Positions 1,960 to 58,419 of a stretch of 64,000 nt of DNA are shown piece after piece. Both the position numbers and the translations under genes were made by a program. The DNA comes from Syncephalis fuscata (Eukaryota; Zoopagomycota; Zoopagomycetes; Zoopagales; Piptocephalidaceae). The notes under the pieces were generated by a model, which was given only the letters and a program-made list of their open reading frames with translations, ran no database searches and was not told the origin of the DNA. How positions within the stretch are numbered: position 1 is the first letter of the stretch; every line of letters begins with the position of its first letter. The stretch spans positions 496,001 to 560,000 of the forward strand of contig JAHLTZ010000003.1 of the NCBI GenBank assembly GCA_025786725.1, given 5' to 3'.

Positions 1960-4613
1960 TTAATCAAACTCTGCAGGCCATAATCGATCAAATACACTTC
2001 TACTATGGCCATTACTTCTTGGACCCGTGGTGGTTATTGTACTATTATTACCACGTTCATAGGTGGCCATATCAAATGACGAGGATGTCGATAAGAATAG
2101 ATCGTCACTTAACGGGGAACAATGATTCGAGTTGGTTGTACCATGTGAGAAACTAAGAATATCGTCACGATAAGATAGAAAACGAGCATGTCGATAAAGA
2201 GCATGCCATAATGTAAGTAATAAACGATAATTAGGATCAGCGGTTGTACCACGAGTTGGTCTACACCCACAATGTAATACAATGAGTTAGTTATTAGTTA
2301 ACAATCAATAGTAATACCAATGATAGATAGTTACCTTTCTACAAAAGCAATTGGATCCTCTAGACCATCAAGTAATACTTCACGATAGGATCCACTGGCT
2401 GTACGTCGAAGTGGTCGTGTTTTATAATGTTGTCCTGTTGTTGTTGTTGTTGTTGTTGTTTCTGTTGTTGTGTGGTGTGTGGTGTCAATACATACTTTAC
2501 TACTCGTACCTGTATGTTCATCATCCCACATACTCATCGCTTCTTCTTGTCGTTGTGCAGACCACACAGCATCGTTAGATGGTGTAGATGACCGACTATC
2601 TCTATTATTCGATGATCGATGTGTATAATAGATATCTGTAGTATCATCTATATTATGCCATGGTCTTTCTTTAATTGAACTGTATTGTTGTCGCTCTTTT
2701 TCTTCTTTTCTTCTCTTCTTCTTCTGTCAGAGTAGGTGTAAATGAGATACGCATTGGATCTTTGATATAACCAGGTGCAGTGGCCCGTTTCCGAACAGCA
2801 AATGAATGAAATAGTGTCTTGGATCGCATAGGTCGACCCATATCATATCGTATAGAAGATCGCCATCTTTATTGGTGTTGTTACTACGACTATTAGTATG
2901 GGTACTATCTTCATCGTCATAATAGTCATCCGTACTATTATTAATAAGTAGACCCGATGGATCTTCTGTTAAATGATGTCGTTGTTCAAATCGATAAGCG
3001 GCCATTGCATCGGGTGAATTGGAAAAATAGTTACTAGGATGCCACTATCATTTATTATTTAATATAAAGATTAAGATTAAGATTAATATGTTAATGGTTA
3101 AATACTAAACACTTACATTAACCGCATCAGAAAATACCAAGGCAGATTTGACTGATAAATCACCAATAGCATTCATAGATGCATGTACTAATGATTTAAT
3201 AGAAAATAAAGAATTACGTTTTTTGTTATGAATACTATGGTGGTGGTGGTTATGATGGTGTTGTAGTTGTGGTGGTGGTGGTAATTGATGGTGTTGAATA
3301 GTAGTGACTGGAAGGGATTCAGTTGATAATGGATCAATATTTGATTGAATAGGTGTAGTATGGATGGACATGTTATTCGTTACAGTAACTGTATTGGTAG
3401 GTGTTGTTGTTGTTGTTGGTGGTGGTGGTGATAAAGTATCAATATACACTAATTGACTATCTTCTTGGTGTACATTAATCGGTGAAGATGGATTAGATAC
3501 ATATGTAATATCTGTATCAATTAATGGTGTAGTAGCCATTGAATCAGTAATAGGCGATGCATTAGTAACAGGCACACCTGGGGCAATAGGTGTAGATGCC
3601 AATTCACTACGTAATGCTCTTAATTCTTCAGGTCGACCCAATACACGTGATACACTACCGTGAGAGGAACGGACTCGAGAACGGCCTATACTTTTAACAG
3701 CCCCATTACCATTTACCATGTCATGTTGACCATTCTCTTCTGTACAATAACTAGCACTGGATGAACGACGTAGTAGTAATTCCCAGGCCTGTTTTTGTTT
3801 TTGTTGTGTGATATGACTGGGTGGCAATGCTTCAATTGATGACGTAGATGGTGGCGATATAATAGCCGGTAACTTTTTAGTTGACTCTAGTTCTGGCGAT
3901 GATAGCATTTCAAAGTCTGAACTATCTGGACTAATCATTACCGGTGAGGTAATACCGTCACCAACATGGTTATCCTGTGTATTATTATTGGCGGTTATAT
4001 CAATGGGTGTATGAACAAGGTCATTGGTCGTATTTGTGACTGTTTCTACACTAGTAGATTTGGTGGTTGAAGCTAATTTGATACTAGGTGTTGTCAATGA
4101 AGTAGTGGCACTAATAATGGCTGCTGCACTAGCTTTAATAGAAGACCGATGATTTGATTGTGTACCACGTTGTTGTAATGATAAACTAAGTGGTGCAGGA
4201 ATACCGCCTACAGTGCCCGTACTGATACTTTGACCAGCATGGACTGGTGTTGATAATTGTCGACGTTGAGCAATAGTAGGCGGTGTTGTCACCAAGCCAT
4301 TATGTCCTTTTCGTTTTGTATAGCCTTTTCCATATCTGGTGGTTTCTTCGGTTGTTCTGCCCGATGCCGTGAGCAGTGGCGTTGAAGATAACGACGCTGA
4401 CGACGACGACAACGACGACGACGACAGCGGTAAACGATGAGGGCCGCCAGTCATCGTCGGTGTGGTCACCGTTGTCGTTGGCAACTCTACCCAGTCATCT
4501 TCACCACCTAGTGACGATAATGAATCAGAGGAAGAAGTAGAGGTAGAAGGAATGGCGTTGGCGGTAGAGATGTTAAGACGACCATGAGATGACGTCTTTT
4601 GTTTTTGAGACAT
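1960..4613 (-). CDS. Ser/Thr-rich low-complexity protein, unknown function
   Basis: I do not recognise this protein. Exon 1 (4613-3117) starts MSQKQKTSSHGRLN, has an acidic patch GGEDDWVELP near residue 38, and then long Ser/Thr-rich, disordered-looking sequence with Pro and His runs. A 72-base intron (3045-3116) joins it in phase 0 to exon 2 (3044-2335). A 74-base intron (2261-2334) leads to exon 3 (2260-1960), which ends VFDRLWPAEFD. The more ordered parts are a Lys/Arg-rich stretch after DMGRPMRSKTLFHSFAVRK and the helix-like PNYRLLLTLWHALYRHARF. Exon 2 needs two single-base corrections, near 2843 and in the purine run near 2695-2715. The exon chain is well supported by splice signals and matching phases; the function is unknown. 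Confidence 0.62.
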
Positions 4614-36905: not shown

Positions 36906-38075
36906 TTAATTTTCATCCTTCTTGCTCTTGGATTTACCCTTCTTATTCTTCTTGTGAGACTTTTTGTCAGTCTTGGACTTGGACTTGGGCTCGGGCTCGG
37001 CTTCATTGTTGGTCGTGTCGTCTGAAGTGTCGGTCTCATTTTCAGCCTTCTTGTCAGACCTGGTTGGCGTCTTTTCTGGTTGGGTATCAGAATCCACATC
37101 ACCACCAGTTGTGGTATCATTGTCTGCACCAGCATCAGGCTTGGTCGGCTCAAATGTGTCCTTGCCATCAGCGGTAGTAGGGGTCAGTTTTTTATCGTTG
37201 TATTTACCGCCAGTGCCACCACGGGGATCGGCACTTGTAGCGATGAAAAAGCCTGGCATATCTTTGCCAGTTGGGCCCAAATCGGTACGCTTTTTCTTTC
37301 TGGCTCCATTGTTATCGGCGAATTTACTAGCAACAAATTTTGACCATGGAATTTTGGTCGGTGGCTTAACTGCGCCTGGCTTACCGCCACCAGCCTCACC
37401 TACAACGGTACCCTCGGTAGTTGCTGTGGAGCCAGCAGGAATAGTAACAATTTTACGCTTGTTAAAGTTCTCCTTGCCATCCTGCGATGCATCCTTGTTG
37501 GCCCATCGAGGGAATTCGGGTGCACCAGAGGTACGAGCAAGCATGAGTTCCGGTCCAGTTAAACTACCAGTGGGTGAGCCGCCAGTAATTTCAATATCGG
37601 CACAATTCATATAGTATTCTGAGTTACCACCGGCGTTGATAAATGTCCAGGTAAACAGCGCTTTACCGTTACGTGCTCCCTTTGGAATTGGAACTGTGTA
37701 GCGGTAAGGAGCAATGCCCATAAAGCACATATCGATGATGGTTCGAGTAACAACCCACGTCTTTCCGTTATCGTAAGAAAAAGCGAATTGGCAATGTCCA
37801 CCCATGTGTGGACTACCTTGCATGAATTCAACGATAAAGTCTTGTCCCGCAGTGTAGCGCGCAGTAACAGGCCCTTCTTTTTGGAATCGGCAAGGATATT
37901 TACCGGGGGCGCCACCGCCAAATAAAGCACCATCAGGATGCGGTGCAACTTGGCCATATCCTTTATTACGTGGATCACCGCGAGGAATTGGAGAGAAAAG
38001 CTGCATATGGCCAGAGACGCATTGCAAAGCGCTCAATGCCAGAAGAGTGGCGCCGCTGAGTTTGTTCCAAAACAT
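36906..38075 (-). CDS. secreted lytic polysaccharide monooxygenase, AA11-like (chitin)
   Basis: Copper enzyme that oxidatively cleaves chitin. One intact exon of 389 residues. The signal peptide ends at ...LQCVSG, so the mature protein begins with His (HMQLFSPIPRGDPRN), as copper His-brace enzymes need; the second ligand is probably in SPHMGGHCQFAFSYDNGK. Cysteines in YPCRF, GGHCQF, DMCFMG and MNCADIEITGG fit the AA11 disulfide frame. The catalytic domain (about 200 residues) is followed by a Gly/Ala/Pro linker and a strongly charged tail of Asp/Glu/Thr then Lys/Ser repeats, which could bind an acidic wall polymer. The LPMO class is firm; the AA11 subfamily is by motif only. Confidence 0.87.
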   Translation of the reverse strand: MFWNKLSGATLLALSALQCVSGHMQLFSPIPRGDPRNKGYGQVAPHPDGALFGGGAPGKYPCRFQKEGPVTARYTAGQDFIVEFMQGSPHMGGHCQFAFSYDNGKTWVVTRTIIDMCFMGIAPYRYTVPIPKGARNGKALFTWTFINAGGNSEYYMNCADIEITGGSPTGSLTGPELMLARTSGAPEFPRWANKDASQDGKENFNKRKIVTIPAGSTATTEGTVVGEAGGGKPGAVKPPTKIPWSKFVASKFADNNGARKKKRTDLGPTGKDMPGFFIATSADPRGGTGGKYNDKKLTPTTADGKDTFEPTKPDAGADNDTTTGGDVDSDTQPEKTPTRSDKKAENETDTSDDTTNNEAEPEPKSKSKTDKKSHKKNKKGKSKSKKDEN

Positions 38076-39552: not shown

Positions 39553-40215
39553 ATGAGTATTTCTATTGCCGTCGTCTGTACCATTGTCGTGGCTCTTGTG
39601 GCCACTATGACCGTGGTGGACACTAAGCCAGTTCTAACTCGTCGTGGTATGTTGCAATTACAATAAATATGTAAATTAGTATACTTATTAACATTATGTT
39701 TACCTAATGCATCATTAGAACATAAGTTGTGATTATTGATCATTATTCCAACACTTATCGACACTATTATACACATGATGGCCATTATAACACATAACAG
39801 CTGCCAGTAAGTGGAATTGTATATTGTTTGGTTACATACTAATTATATTTCATATATTATGCATATCTAATAATGATACTAATAGTTGGTAAGTGATATT
39901 TTGTATCAAATAAATATAAACTAATTACATGCTATGCGCTGTGTGTGTTTAACAATCTAATATCAATAGTTGGTAAGTGGCATTTTATATTAAATAGCTA
40001 TATACTAATTAAATAATATACGTTGTGTATATTTAATAACTATATTAATAGCTGGTAAGTAGTATGCTATATTAACCAATTTTATATTTGTTACATGTCA
40101 TTCAATGTGTGCACTTGATAACTTGTATTAATAGAATGTAAGTGACATCGTATAGCATTAATTTATATGCTGCTTATATGGCACATTCTACATATATACT
40201 ATCGATACAGTTTAA
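39553..40215 (+). CDS. short microexon gene, secreted peptide, paralogue of 53433-56452
   Basis: Exon 1 (39553-39646) encodes a signal peptide MSISIAVVCTIVVALVATMT and ends at a dibasic LTRR plus one base (phase 1), like the gene at 53433. Tiny exons follow: 39801-39806 (six bases), 39886-39888, 39970-39972, 40052-40054 and 40135-40137, each between a ...TAG or CAG acceptor and GTAAGT. A possible further triplet at 39719-39721 has ATAAGT after it, a lost donor. Joined in phase 1 they stay open, and the last exon (from 40211) gives a stop after two bases, as in the large paralogue. Product about 38 residues, without cysteines after the signal. The 3' region after 40220 still aligns to that of the large gene. 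It may be a decayed or ancestral short form. Confidence 0.6.
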
Positions 40216-52660: not shown

Positions 52661-53140
52661 GCTATTTGTATGTATGCAGATATTGGGACCCGAGTCATTC
52701 AGTGGAAGTGACAGCAAAAACAGCATTATCGCTTTTATAAAACCAAACAATATACTTGTTTTCACCAAGTAGTTAGACCTTGTAATAAAAAATACGACTA
52801 ATGTGTCTATCTCTATCATATGTGTACTGAATTATTATCATTATTGTGTTATTACTGTAAATGACTAGCAGATTGAAGTAAAGGCCGGGCAGATTATGTG
52901 CTATTTTGTATGCATGCAGATATCGGGGCCCAAGTCATTCGGTGGAAGTGACAGCAAAGGCATCATTATCGTTTTTACAAAACCAAACAATATACTTGTT
53001 TTTATTAAATAGTTAGATCGTGTAACAGAAAATACAGAATAATATACCTATCTCTATCGCATATGCACCGGATTATTACCATTATTGTTTCATTCCTGTA
53101 AATGATGGCAGCTTAAAGTAAAGACCAGGCAGGTTAAAAT
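52661..53140 (+). repeat. tandem duplication, two units of about 240 bases
   Basis: Unit 1 (about 52661-52900) and unit 2 (about 52901-53140) share gcagatat(t/c)gggnccc, agtcattc(a/g)gtggaagtgac, aaaccaaacaatatacttg and cctatctctatc-like blocks at a constant offset of 240. Confidence 0.8.
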
Positions 53141-53432
53141 TAAGACTGGGAACATTCTATCATACCACGAATCTATTGGTACCCGCACGTTTCAAACCAT
53201 TATTTAGATTGCTTCATTGGTTCATATTACACATCAATGGTATGCCTCGTATGCTACAGCATACCAGTACCTCAGCATAACCATAGATTTAAATAGCCCA
53301 CAAAATATACACAACCAACTAAAATATCATCACCACACTCTACTTCTTACTAAACACACACTACTCTTCACTTTACACTTACCACACTCTACTATCTCTT
53401 TTATTTGTTTGTCTTAACAAATCAATATCACC

Positions 53433-56400
53433 ATGAAGCTTTCCATTGCCGTCGTTTGCACCATTGCCATTGCGCTTGTGGCCGTCACAACCATGGTGGA
53501 TGCTAATCCAGCGTTAGTTCGTCGTGGTGGTATGTTGCAATAACAATAAATATGCCATATCATTATATTTACTAACAGTATTGCTAACTAATGATTATAA
53601 TAGCCAGTAGGTTGTATTATATACTACTTGACTATAAATTAACTATATTATTGATTAATTGTACCGTTTATTTAATATTAATAGAGGGTAAGTTGTACTA
53701 TATATTGCTTAACTATACATTAACTATGTGCCATATACTGTATTTATCAACAACTTAATATTAATAGAATGTAAGTTGTATTGTATATCAATTGATTACT
53801 TAATAATTATATACTTTGTACTGTGTGCATCAATGTTTAATACTAATAGGCAGTAAGTGATATTGTATACTAGTGACCTATAAATTAATTCTATACCATG
53901 TATTATTTGTATCAACAACTTAATGTCATAGAGGGTAAGGTGTATTGTGTATTAACTGGCTATGAACTAATTTTATATTATCCCCGTGTATATCAACAAT
54001 TTAATATTAATAGAATGTAAGTTATATTGCATATTAATTAATTATTCACTAATCATATATTATGTACTGTGTGTACCAACGGCTTAATAATAATAGGCGG
54101 TAAGCAGCATTATCTGTTGCTGACTTATAAATTAATTATATACCATACACTATGTGTATCAATAACTTGATGGAATAGTTAGTAAGTAACATTACATATT
54201 AACTGACTATGCACTAATTATACATAATGTACTATGTGTATCAACAATTTAATTCAATAGAAAGTAAGCTATATTATATATTAACTAATTACTCACTAAT
54301 TATATCTATGCACTGTATGCATCAACAAATATTAATAGACTGTAAGTAGCATTGTATATTGGTGATTTATACATTGATTATATACCACTTATTGTGTATA
54401 TCAATAACGTAATATTAATAGGCTGTAAGTACCATTATATATTGATGGTTTATAAATTAATTATGTGCCATGCACTGTGTATCAACGAATTAATATATTA
54501 GTGAGTAAGTAACATTGCATATTAACTGACTATACATTAATAATGCTATTTACTAATTGTACCGATTATTTAATATTAATAGATGGTAAGTATTATTGTA
54601 TATTAATTAACTATACATTAACTATACTATTTACTGATTGTACCAATTATTTAATATTAATAGCCAGTAAGTGATATTGTATATTAACTGAATATACATT
54701 AATCATGTTACTTACTGATTGTACTAATTATTTAATATTAATAGATTGTAAGTGATATTGTATATTAAATGAATATACATTAATCATGTTACTTACTAAT
54801 GGTATTAATTATTTAATATTAATAGCCAGTAAGTGATATTGTATATTAACTGACTATACATTAACCATGTCACTTACTGATTGTACCAATTATTTAATAT
54901 TAATAGCTGGTATGTTATATTGTATATTAACTGAATATACATTAATCATGCTATTTACTAATTATACCGATTACTTAATATTAATAGATTGTAAGTGATA
55001 TTTTATATTAGCTGACTATACATTAATTATAATATTTACTGATTGTACCAATTATTTAATATTAATAGCTAGTAAGTGATATTGTATATTAACTGAATAT
55101 ACATTAATCATGTTACTTACTGATTGTACTAATTATTTAATATTAATAGAACGTAAGTGATATTGTATATTAAATGAATATACATTAGTCATTCTATTTA
55201 CTAATTGTACCGATTATTTAATATTAATAGCCAGTAAGTGATATTTTATATTAACTGACTATACATTAACCATGTCACTTACTGATTGTACCAATTATTT
55301 AATATTAATAGCTGGTATGTTATATCGCATATTAACTGACTACATTAATAATGCTATTTACTAATTGTACCAATTATTTAATATTAATAGCTGGTATGTT
55401 ATATTGTATATTAACTGACTATACATTAATCATGCTATTTACTAATTGTACCGATTATTTAATATTAATAGATTGTAAGTGATATTTTATATTAGCTGAC
55501 TATACACTAATAATGCTATTTACTAATTGTACCGATTACTTAATATTAATAGATTGTAAGTGATATTGTATATTAACTGACTATACACTAATAATGCTAT
55601 TTACTAATTGTACCGATTGTTTAATATGAATAGGCTGTAAGTGATATTGCATATTAACTGACTATACATTCACTATGCTATTTACTGATTGTATCAATTG
55701 TTTAATATGAATAGGGGGTAGGTAATATTGCATATTAACCGAATATACATTAACCATGCTATTTACTGATTGTATCAATTGTTTAATATTAATAGATAGT
55801 AAGTGATATTGTATATTAATTGGCTATAAATTAATTATGCTATTTGCTGATGATACCGATTATTTAATGTTAATAGAATGTATGTGAAATTTTGGATCAA
55901 TTGAATATTCACTAATCACATGCTATTTATTGTATCCATTAACAAATTAATATTAATAGGCAGTAAGTAGAATTATATATTAACTAAATATGCACTAATT
56001 CTATACCATGTATTGTATATATAAATAACTTAATATAAAAGGACGTAAGTTGTATTATGTGTCAATTAACTACTTGCTAATTATATATTATGTATTATGC
56101 TTATCAATGGCTTAATATTAATAGAATGTAAGTCATATTGTATATTAATTGAACATTGGCTAATTATATACCATGCACCATGTATATTAATAACTTAATA
56201 TTAGCTAAATGTAATTTGTATTGTATATTAATTGAGCATTGGTTAATTATATATCACATATTGTGTACATTAATAATTTAATATTAATAGGCTGTAAGTA
56301 GTATTGTATATTGACGGCTTATACATTAATTATATACCGCTTATTGTGTATATCAACAACTTAATATTAATAGACTGTAAGTAGCATTGTATATTGCTGC

Positions 56401-56452
56401 CTTATAAATTAATTTATGACATATAACATCTTTATTTGTAAATACAGCATAA
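53433..56452 (+). CDS. microexon gene: secreted Cys-rich peptide encoded by triplet exons
   Basis: Exon 1 (53433-53529) encodes a signal peptide MKLSIAVVCTIAIALVAVTT, then ...ALVRR and one base of the next codon (phase 1). About 34 three-base exons follow, each bounded by ...TAG and GTAAGT-like sites: starts at 53604, 53685, 53768, 53850, 53932, 54014, 54097, 54179, 54261, 54339, 54422, 54502, 54583, 54664, 54745, 54826, 54907, 54988, 55069, 55150, 55231, 55312, 55391, 55472, 55553, 55634, 55715, 55796, 55877, 55960, 56042, 56125, 56291 and 56374, plus a six-base candidate at 56205-56210. The last exon starts at 56448. In phase 1 no stop occurs (phases 0 and 2 stop early), the product is 69 residues, and TAA comes after two bases of the last exon. 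The mature part has six Cys spaced x2, x3, x14, x3, x4. RR suggests Kex2 cleavage. Function unknown. Confidence 0.75.
53607..56447 (+). repeat. tandem array of about 36 intron units (72-90 bases each)
   Basis: Each unit runs GTAAGTGATATTGTATATTA..., then CTGACTATACATTAA, an AT-rich middle, and ends TTAATATTAATAG before the next exon triplet. Central units (54664-55560) are nearly identical; outer ones have drifted. A block of about five units appears twice (from 54664 and from 55069). Confidence 0.88.
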
Positions 56453-58419
56453 TCGATGGTTTCAAGACATCAGCATTGGTAGTGCAATCAAGCCACTAGT
56501 CCAATACACTTTAGGTATATATTCGGTGAAAAGCAAGACCATTTGACAACTACGCCGTCCAGTCTATCTGTATATCAAGTTTTTGCCAATGCTTCGGTTT
56601 ATCCAATCTTTAACCAATGGAATCATTATGTTACCAACATGTTTGCATCTAGTTGTTTCTATTCAACTGTGCAAGCTTATAGTAATAAATCTATGGTTTC
56701 ATCTTAGCTATATACAATCAACTTACTATATTTTTAATCATGTTTTATTTACATTTAATAATTAACAATTATTAATCAAATAGTTAAATTAATAACAAAC
56801 TGTGTATGATTATATCGTGTAAGCTATAGACATAGATTGTTATGGATGGTAGTAAAGCTATCATTATCATATAGCCAAATAATAGTATGCTGAATTAAAA
56901 TAAATACGCTTTTTAATAAAACACGACAATAAAGCATACAGTATTATAAAACAAAATAAATAGACAAAACAAATACGTGAATAGTAATAACAAAACTATA
57001 CTGTATGCAATTAGCCAATAGTAATGAACGAAATGGATCAAGATCTGCTAAAAGAATACAGTTAGCAATAAACTTTTAGCTTTTATTAATATAATTTCTA
57101 CAATTTACAATATTAATGATATAGACAGACATATAGTATATGTATACAGGGTAGATATGTACAGCACAATAATAATGATAAATAAATAGTTTAATAACCA
57201 ATGACACTCATCACTCAGTTTCATCTTTAATAAAGCGGATACTTCGTTTAAATGTGTGGCTATTATAGTTATTTAACTGCCAAATCACATTAAACAGTCA
57301 ATAGTGTGTTCAATATTGTGGAAAAAGTTATCTTTATTTAGTTGATAAAAATATCATAAGATTCAATACAAATCAAATGGTTTAAATGATTCGCTACAGC
57401 TCCCTTTTAAGCTTTTTTGCCATATTCCATAACTTTTCTAAATTATGACATTGGAGCGACTACTGCGATGTTTAAGAATGAATGTTACAAGTAGATTGTT
57501 CTAGTTTGCCAATGATAAATGTCATGTTGACGGTTTTATTTTGCATATCTCCCCTCTTGCTTGATACACCAACTAATTAACTTGATTTAATCAAAACAGT
57601 AATGCTTTCATGTAATTCGGAATTGTTTAATTACTAAATCTGATACCTGAAATGCTCTAAATAAGCCACTCTAATTTTATTTGTTGGTTAAATTTTATAT
57701 TTTAAAAAATATTTATTAATTGAATCGCTTTTGTTTGCATTAAACTTTATTTATTTTGCTAGTTGTTTCGTTAGTAGTTTGTATTTGTTCAATAAAAACG
57801 TTTATTTCAATATTAACTACTGTTTTAATACAATTAATGCTAATCTTTACATAGCATGTTTTTGTATTGTATTTTTGAGTTGCATTTGTCACAAATATAT
57901 TGTTGAAAGTCTTTTAACAAATAAAACATGATTAGCATTGCTGTTGATATTGCTAAAATTAACTAAACTATGTAAATAAGCAAAATTGGTTTCAATTGAA
58001 AACATGCTGTTATGTAAAAAAAAACATAGTTATAGTGTTCTCATTTGATTAATTTGAAATTCACGAGGCTAATTATTGTTTTTGTTGGTCATGTATAGAA
58101 AAATTGATCAAATATCGATAGAAGCTATATGATTGTAATTCCATATCATTTCGCATTTGTTGTTGCTATGTCTACGTACAGTGTGGATTATTGCATCTGA
58201 ATGATTTTTTCTATTTTCTAATATTCTACTATTGTATTTTAAGCATATTTGTGCTGTAAGATCAATATTAATATAGCTATTATAAGTATTGTTTATTAAA
58301 CAGCCACTTTCCCTATAGCTAATCTAACTAAATAAGAAGTCAAAGTAAAATAGCTCACTAATGTAAATAATTTATTAGTAGATTCATGTGATTTAGTGTC
58401 AAAAAATCAAAACTAACAT
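56453..58419. other. 3' region of the microexon gene and AT-rich spacer
   Basis: About 56460-56680 aligns to the 3' region of the short paralogue. The right copy of the direct repeat is at 58088-58265. No gene seen. Confidence 0.5.
58088..58265 (+). repeat. direct repeat, right copy
   Basis: Partner of 51011-51190, same orientation, with scattered substitutions and small indels. Confidence 0.6.

Follow-up and report, generated by a model that had tools for sequence, protein, structure and literature searches.

Can the mature part of a secreted protein be written in exons of three bases, one after another, for almost its whole length? This is the question raised by a locus in a 64,000-nucleotide stretch of the genome of Syncephalis fuscata, a member of the Zoopagales; the whole stretch is called the window below. 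An earlier note on this DNA had read there a signal-peptide exon followed by about 34 triplets, each set between an acceptor TAG and a donor GTAAGT, and had proposed a gene whose codons are spliced together one by one. We parsed the array by splice scores, with exon lengths limited to 3 or 6 nt and blind to reading frame (Table 1). The parse recovered the 34 three-base exons and the single six-base unit that had been described, an exon 1 ending in phase 1, a TAA two bases into the final exon, and TGA as one of the triplets. Once spliced, the gene at 53433-56452 has the foretold 210 coding nt and a conceptual product of 69 aa, MKLSIAVVCTIAIALVAVTTMVDANPALVRR-GAKECKECVKNCLNANSTDSKPTADYCWDKCRQSKCYS, and its longest intron is at most 120 nt. 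When only three-base exons are joined, the exon-1 phase has 0 internal stops, as against 1 in phase 0 and 5 in phase 2, in agreement with the claim that this phase alone reads through. The TAG/GTAAGT pattern holds in general but less strictly than stated: one acceptor is AAG, and the donors include GTAGGT, GTATGT, GTAAGC and GTAAGG. The six-base unit has the weakest-looking donor in the array, and an earlier parse that omitted it gave a product ending in ...CRQCYS. The predicted peptide is probably processed at its dibasic site. A structure model of the product was poor (mean pLDDT 54.6), and a search of the window against Rfam gave no match.

Table 1. Positions of the family's features in the window (numbered from its first letter)
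Feature	Position	Strand	Details and basis
Upstream region of the window gene	52661..53432	+	Two 240-bp direct repeats (52661-53136; 82% matches) immediately 5' of the gene; region alike over ~490-600 bp in most family loci compared
Exon 1, signal peptide and short pro-region ending RR-G	53433..53529	+	97 nt; phase 1 end, G before GTATGT; sequence
Array: 35 microexons (34 three-base, one six-base) separated and flanked by 36 introns	53530..56447	+	Splice-score parse; tandem-repeat detection, period ~81
Microexon TGA	54502..54504	+	Read across in exon-1 phase, not as a stop; parse and phase test
Six-base microexon CTAAAT	56205..56210	+	Shifted acceptor TTAATATTAG, weak donor GTAATT; inclusion uncertain; parse
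Coding end in last exon, CA then stop TAA	56448..56452	+	Parse; post-stop sequence starts TCGATGGTTT, as in the intronless copy L054/L074
Family-conserved 3' UTR	56453..56700	+	AATAAA at 56684-56689; 3' end approximate; sequence and similar 3' regions elsewhere
Second, short diverged family member	39553..40215	+	Exon 1 and four triplets (39886, 39970, 40052 and 40135); possibly a six-base unit as well; last exon begins at 40211; phase-1 reading ends at an in-phase TAA; long branch in upstream tree

The spacing of acceptor and donor in the array is beyond chance. Genome-wide, TAG-NNN-GTAAGT occurs at 4287 sites (1874 + 2413), against 302 for a reversed-pattern control. At a spacing of 4 nt the corresponding counts are 431 and 531, with no excess, and at 6 nt they are 494 and 297, a weak excess; among the three spacings compared, the excess is thus strong at 3 nt only. 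The 3985 excess sites, divided by the 23.8 strict units of a full gene, suggest an estimate of roughly 170 arrayed genes. Full genes carry a median of 30 microexons, separated by mutually similar introns of ~78 nt (median 78 nt, 19 arrays). Homologous loci were found with three queries: with exon 1 plus donor as a DNA query, the best 40 of 211 candidates, the window gene included, were scored at 86-100% identity; with a full-length family protein, the best 150 of 309 candidate matches were scored; and with the 3' region, the best 40 places out of 250 candidates, one of them being the query. Both the spacing counts and these loci bear out the view of the earlier note that the window gene belongs to a fungal gene family, and place a large family in the same genome.

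An array of period ~81 whose units are locally similar could nevertheless be a satellite or a decayed tandem intron repeat, removed whole or never expressed, with triplets that carry no information and that occur in no matching database protein. To weigh this we parsed 32 arrays, every one of them located through the family's exon 1, which it follows. They comprised the window gene, 7 short loci and 24 of ~4.1 kb; the short member at 39553 was left out. L041 and L053, in which exon 1 is broken, and 11 near copies by shared 18-mers, the broken L060 among them, were then dropped, leaving 19 non-redundant arrays (16 full and 3 partial) with 545 microexons. Mature coding sequence in these arrays lies in frame-preserving exons far below 51 nt, each of the 545 being 3 or 6 nt long under a frame-blind parse restricted to those two lengths; the genome-wide spacing counts agree with this. 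In the exon-1 phase they contain 0 internal stops in 569 codons, against a mean of 33.3 and a minimum of 16 in 5000 shuffles of exon order; an earlier parse without GC donors or shifted acceptors likewise found none in 511 codons. Stops number 49 in phase 2, spread over 18 of the 19 arrays; phase 0 has few stops too, 4 in 4 of the 19. Cysteines in the exon-1 phase are about doubled (96, against a mean of 47.2 and a maximum of 64 in order shuffles), and the spacing C-x2-C-x3-C appears in 6 of the 19 arrays (mean 0.22, maximum 3 in order shuffles). Furthermore, every one of the 19 full-length arrays that have a sound exon 1 (a count that takes in near copies) is open to a stop no more than 25 nt from the last acceptor. 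When exon lengths that are not a multiple of three were admitted, 15 of these 19 still ended at the last-exon stop, and the frame was lost in four, through exons of 7 nt in L044, 2 nt in L049, 4 nt in L059 and 2 nt in L062. Near-consensus units with 1 or 2 nt between acceptor and donor are present in L042, L049, L053 and L062; if not skipped they would put the frame out, or they may mark genes that are dying. Three of the 32 copies look dead: L041 and L053 have a 1-nt deletion in exon 1, and L060 is without ATG and without the last acceptor.

The intron ends are of U2 type, GT-AG or GC-AG, with the acceptor consensus TTAATATTAATAG and 7 GC donors among the 545 units. Such ends follow by construction, since GT or GC paired with AG was all that the parser accepted; their conservation across paralogues does not. 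In 10 paralogue pairs, some loci being used in two pairs, AG and GT are retained in 189 of 190 aligned units, as against 153.5 expected from the divergence of the introns. An earlier count over 12 pairs found both retained in 203 of 206 units, and the three losses all came from L055 compared with the dead-looking L060. The offsets adjoining the triplet show almost no change, a figure conditioned on kept AG and GT. Before most six-base exons the acceptor is shifted upstream by exactly three bases, TTAATATTAG in place of TTAATATTAATAG, and 18 of the 19 listed have an acceptor ending in ATATTAG; the shifted acceptor is a further frame-keeping route to an added codon.

The reading of the triplets can also be compared with relatives that need no splicing. 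Ten loci (L054/L074 and L075-L083, some of them near copies of one another) encode a whole peptide without introns, with the same kind of signal peptide, the same RR and a cysteine-rich mature domain, and in most of them family-like sequence follows the stop. The end of L074, ...TGT GAA TAA TCGATGG, is what would be expected if the carried G were joined to a last exon of the AATAATCGATGG type, as in arrays such as L049. A profile was built from nine intronless mature domains, L080 being left out as a near copy. Of the 19 spliced peptides, 16 scored above 5 bits, with the window gene highest at 26.5 bits. That threshold was passed by 96 of 950 order-shuffles (p=2e-10), by none of 38 readings in the other phases and, often, by residue-shuffles (404 of 950; p=7e-7); in three arrays (L039, L044 and L057) the profile scores were not distinct from those of their own order-shuffles. 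Against a satellite or decayed repeat there stand, therefore, the missing stops (0 against 33 expected), the doubled cysteines, the match to intronless relatives and the preserved AG and GT, and we regard that reading as very improbable indeed.

The absence of stops, the cysteine excess, the homology to intronless paralogues and the constraint on splice sites, established by computation along with the array structure and its open phase, uphold the proposal of a secreted-peptide gene with a mature part made from three-base exons. Family products combine a signal peptide, judged by eye, with a pro-site and a conserved cysteine framework. We consider it very likely that the window gene is a coding member of a large Syncephalis fuscata family and specifies a secreted six-cysteine peptide, with the mature part put together from three-base exons by splicing. 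From its transcript the spliceosome would remove about 36 short introns with a TTAATATTAATAG acceptor and a GTAAGT donor and join the three-base exons in the exon-1 phase, so that every codon would straddle a junction, with one base from the end of a triplet and two from the start of its successor. A three-base exon is too small for splicing factors on both sides, and since such factors cannot occupy both sides at once, the introns would be removed one after another, each joined triplet lengthening the upstream exon.

Inclusion of all triplets in the mRNA would be the normal state under this scheme. It is possible instead, though unlikely, that the triplets are used but that most transcripts carry a subset, combinatorial skipping giving many in-frame peptides per gene. 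The frame survives the skipping of any 3-nt or 6-nt unit, weak and frame-shifting units exist that would need to be skipped, and splice isoforms are known for schistosome MEGs according to the abstract of PMC10399815; against this, fuller inclusion improves the cysteine framework, weak six-base and GC-donor units having supplied C-x2-C-x3-C in L040, L051 and L052, and the mature parts of the intronless relatives are similar in length. One codon position for every intron means that gain, loss, exchange or skipping of 3- or 6-nt units keeps the frame, which would help the mature peptide to diversify quickly while the signal peptide stays fixed. The signal peptide, the cysteines, the size of the family and the lifestyle of the fungus suggest that the peptides may act on a host fungus or in mycoparasitism. 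A review describes Piptocephalis and Syncephalis as mycoparasitic and, in a passage on their group, calls these mycoparasites depauperate in secondary-metabolite genes (PMC10386755).

Paralogous arrays differ by units gained, lost or replaced, often blockwise, besides single changes. The earlier note had supposed that the family grows by one codon per intron, and one part of this stood: within 13 arrays, neighbouring introns are more alike (0.757 at distance 1) than distant ones (0.695 at 12 or more), and likeness approaches the between-array value (0.710) by about nine units apart. The other part did not fare as well. Where each intron pair is at least 0.88 alike (24 overlapping runs, most of them from the window gene, L042 and L062), the triplets between the introns match at 1.07 of 3 bases, against a background of 0.86. 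Because highly similar introns split almost unrelated triplets, copying or homogenisation of the introns seems to run separately from the codons. Such a pattern is not what plain duplication and later drift would predict; either the introns spread into codons that already existed, or homogenisation acts on the introns while selection keeps or alters the codons. A seeming hypervariability of the triplets was considered and rejected: a first alignment of two pairs gave 22-34% triplet change against 5-7% in introns, and aligning whole units showed that most of it came from units gained or lost and from shifts of register. Where units were strictly anchored, the ratio of triplet to intron change was 2.4 (5 of 243 triplet sites, 63 of 7224 intron sites; p=0.07). 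As the hypervariability is largely an effect of alignment and the anchored ratio has this p value, we claim no positive selection. In a single case, L061 compared with L062, the last two adjacent triplets differ at two bases each and the introns before them are identical. A shared insert of ~410 bp lies within array introns of L047 (606-1099) and, among the matches listed, of L042, L044, L048, L050, L053, L059 and L060. By eye it has a short repeat on both sides in L047 and a tRNA-like end; ARAGORN and Rfam searches of L047 found nothing, so that SINE identity is a guess.

Two histories could have produced arrayed and intronless genes. In the first, introns invaded or were copied into a formerly intronless gene, about one per codon, in the manner of introners. 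Intronless paralogues exist that share promoters with the arrays: upstream homology with arrayed genes extends over ~490-600 bp in seven of the nine intronless genes compared, L078 and L080 sharing 111 bp only and L083 lying outside the comparison because its upstream sequence is too short. Given these shared promoters the seven are unlikely to be plain retrocopies, an origin that we rejected for them. In a tree built from the upstream region together with exon 1 (30 arrayed and 9 intronless rows), a single change between the intronless and arrayed states suffices, and near-identical introns flanking almost unrelated triplets would be expected if introns entered existing codons. Against invasion, the branch on which that change falls is weakly supported (60/92), and the triplets flanking an intron mostly differ, so that a three-base target-site duplication, the only length sought, is mostly absent around the introns. 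To our knowledge, moreover, no introner inserts at every codon in one phase. We hold invasion to be a tentative possibility, somewhat short of probable.

In the second history, tandem duplication of a unit of intron plus codon built the arrays, and the intronless members lost their introns through cDNA. The greater likeness of neighbouring units speaks for this, as do the identical triplets, which make up 14% in the high-identity runs against 4.3% in the background. In four of the ten intronless genes (L074, L075, L079 and L082), moreover, 3' homology ends mostly 16-32 nt past AATAAA, near-copy pairs apart; against this, homology in the other six continues further beyond the poly(A) signal. 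The promoter common to seven of nine intronless genes and the arrayed ones also tells against loss through cDNA, and plain duplication with drift predicts a triplet match near the intron level (about 90%), when only 36% of bases match. This history too may be the true one, although we would not call it probable. A wider proposal, to which we give a little less than an even chance, is that this is a one-codon-per-exon system in which introns copy or homogenise independently, the ~170 genes gain, lose and swap single amino acids by intron recombination, and exon skipping may yield in-frame peptide libraries. If this were true, the spliceosome would have to work in order through about 20-40 introns set around exons of 3 nt, a task close to the limit of splicing.

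The public gene models that match the family seem to lack the spliced peptides. A protein search with alignment (A1), which needs shared short words and so could miss distant kin, returned 13 database proteins at E up to 1, all from S. fuscata, and no 8-residue piece of the 32 spliced mature peptides is present in any of these 13. Four of them were traced to loci. P0014 is the intronless gene L083; P0018 joins exon 1 of L042 to a stretch inside a long intron; and P0019 and P0021 have tails that match array introns in translation (271 introns for the former, best identity 76%; 90 for the latter, best 74%), so that these two gene models read into an intron. Pfam gave only weak matches, each to one member (best E 0.0094 for Toxin_2, then TIL at 0.018), and a PDB search gave nothing convincing. 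Elsewhere in the window, at 36906-38075 on the minus strand, lies a secreted protein, which we take to be LPMO-like, with relatives in Syncephalis and Basidiobolus. The family also suggests that standard gene prediction can miss a large set of secreted peptides. Exons here are as short as they can be without losing the frame, about 30 times in each gene and across a whole family, which offers a natural test of splicing where exon definition seems impossible, of the spread of new introns, and of whether intron-separated codons speed peptide evolution.

Among the best-ranked open-licence matches listed, we found no account of genes of this kind, whether for Syncephalis or for fungi at large, and the nearest known systems resemble this one in part. 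Schistosome MEGs likewise have secreted products and short, mostly frame-preserving exons that are difficult for gene finders; here, in contrast, exons are of 3 nt, with a median of 30 per full gene, and the introns of ~78 nt are alike. The same protein search, with its dependence on shared short words and its risk of missing distant kin, found no sequence relation to them. The earlier note had held that exons of known microexon genes are longer. This is true of the passages of two papers: MEG exons measure 15 bp for the most part, and their introns 100-5000 bp (PMC10526429), and aphid bicycle genes have about 17 exons, the internal ones almost all in phase 2 (PMC9168663). It is less certain at the lower limit, which the abstract of PMC10526429 puts at 3 bp (3-81 bp) and its text at 6 bp (6-81 bp). 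The bicycle genes resemble the present family as fast-changing secreted proteins with many small internal exons in one phase; they differ in belonging to insects and in having exons that are not single codons. Introners insert across many genes of a genome, some families with TSD or TIR, as a passage of PMC9860276 has it; fungal introners and introner-like elements share with our arrays the many similar introns within one genome, whereas here the introns stand in tandem, one per codon, within one gene family. Finally, the fungal small secreted cysteine-rich proteins are alike in signal peptide, dibasic site, cysteine-rich mature part and large family, and it is in the architecture of the gene that the present family differs from them.
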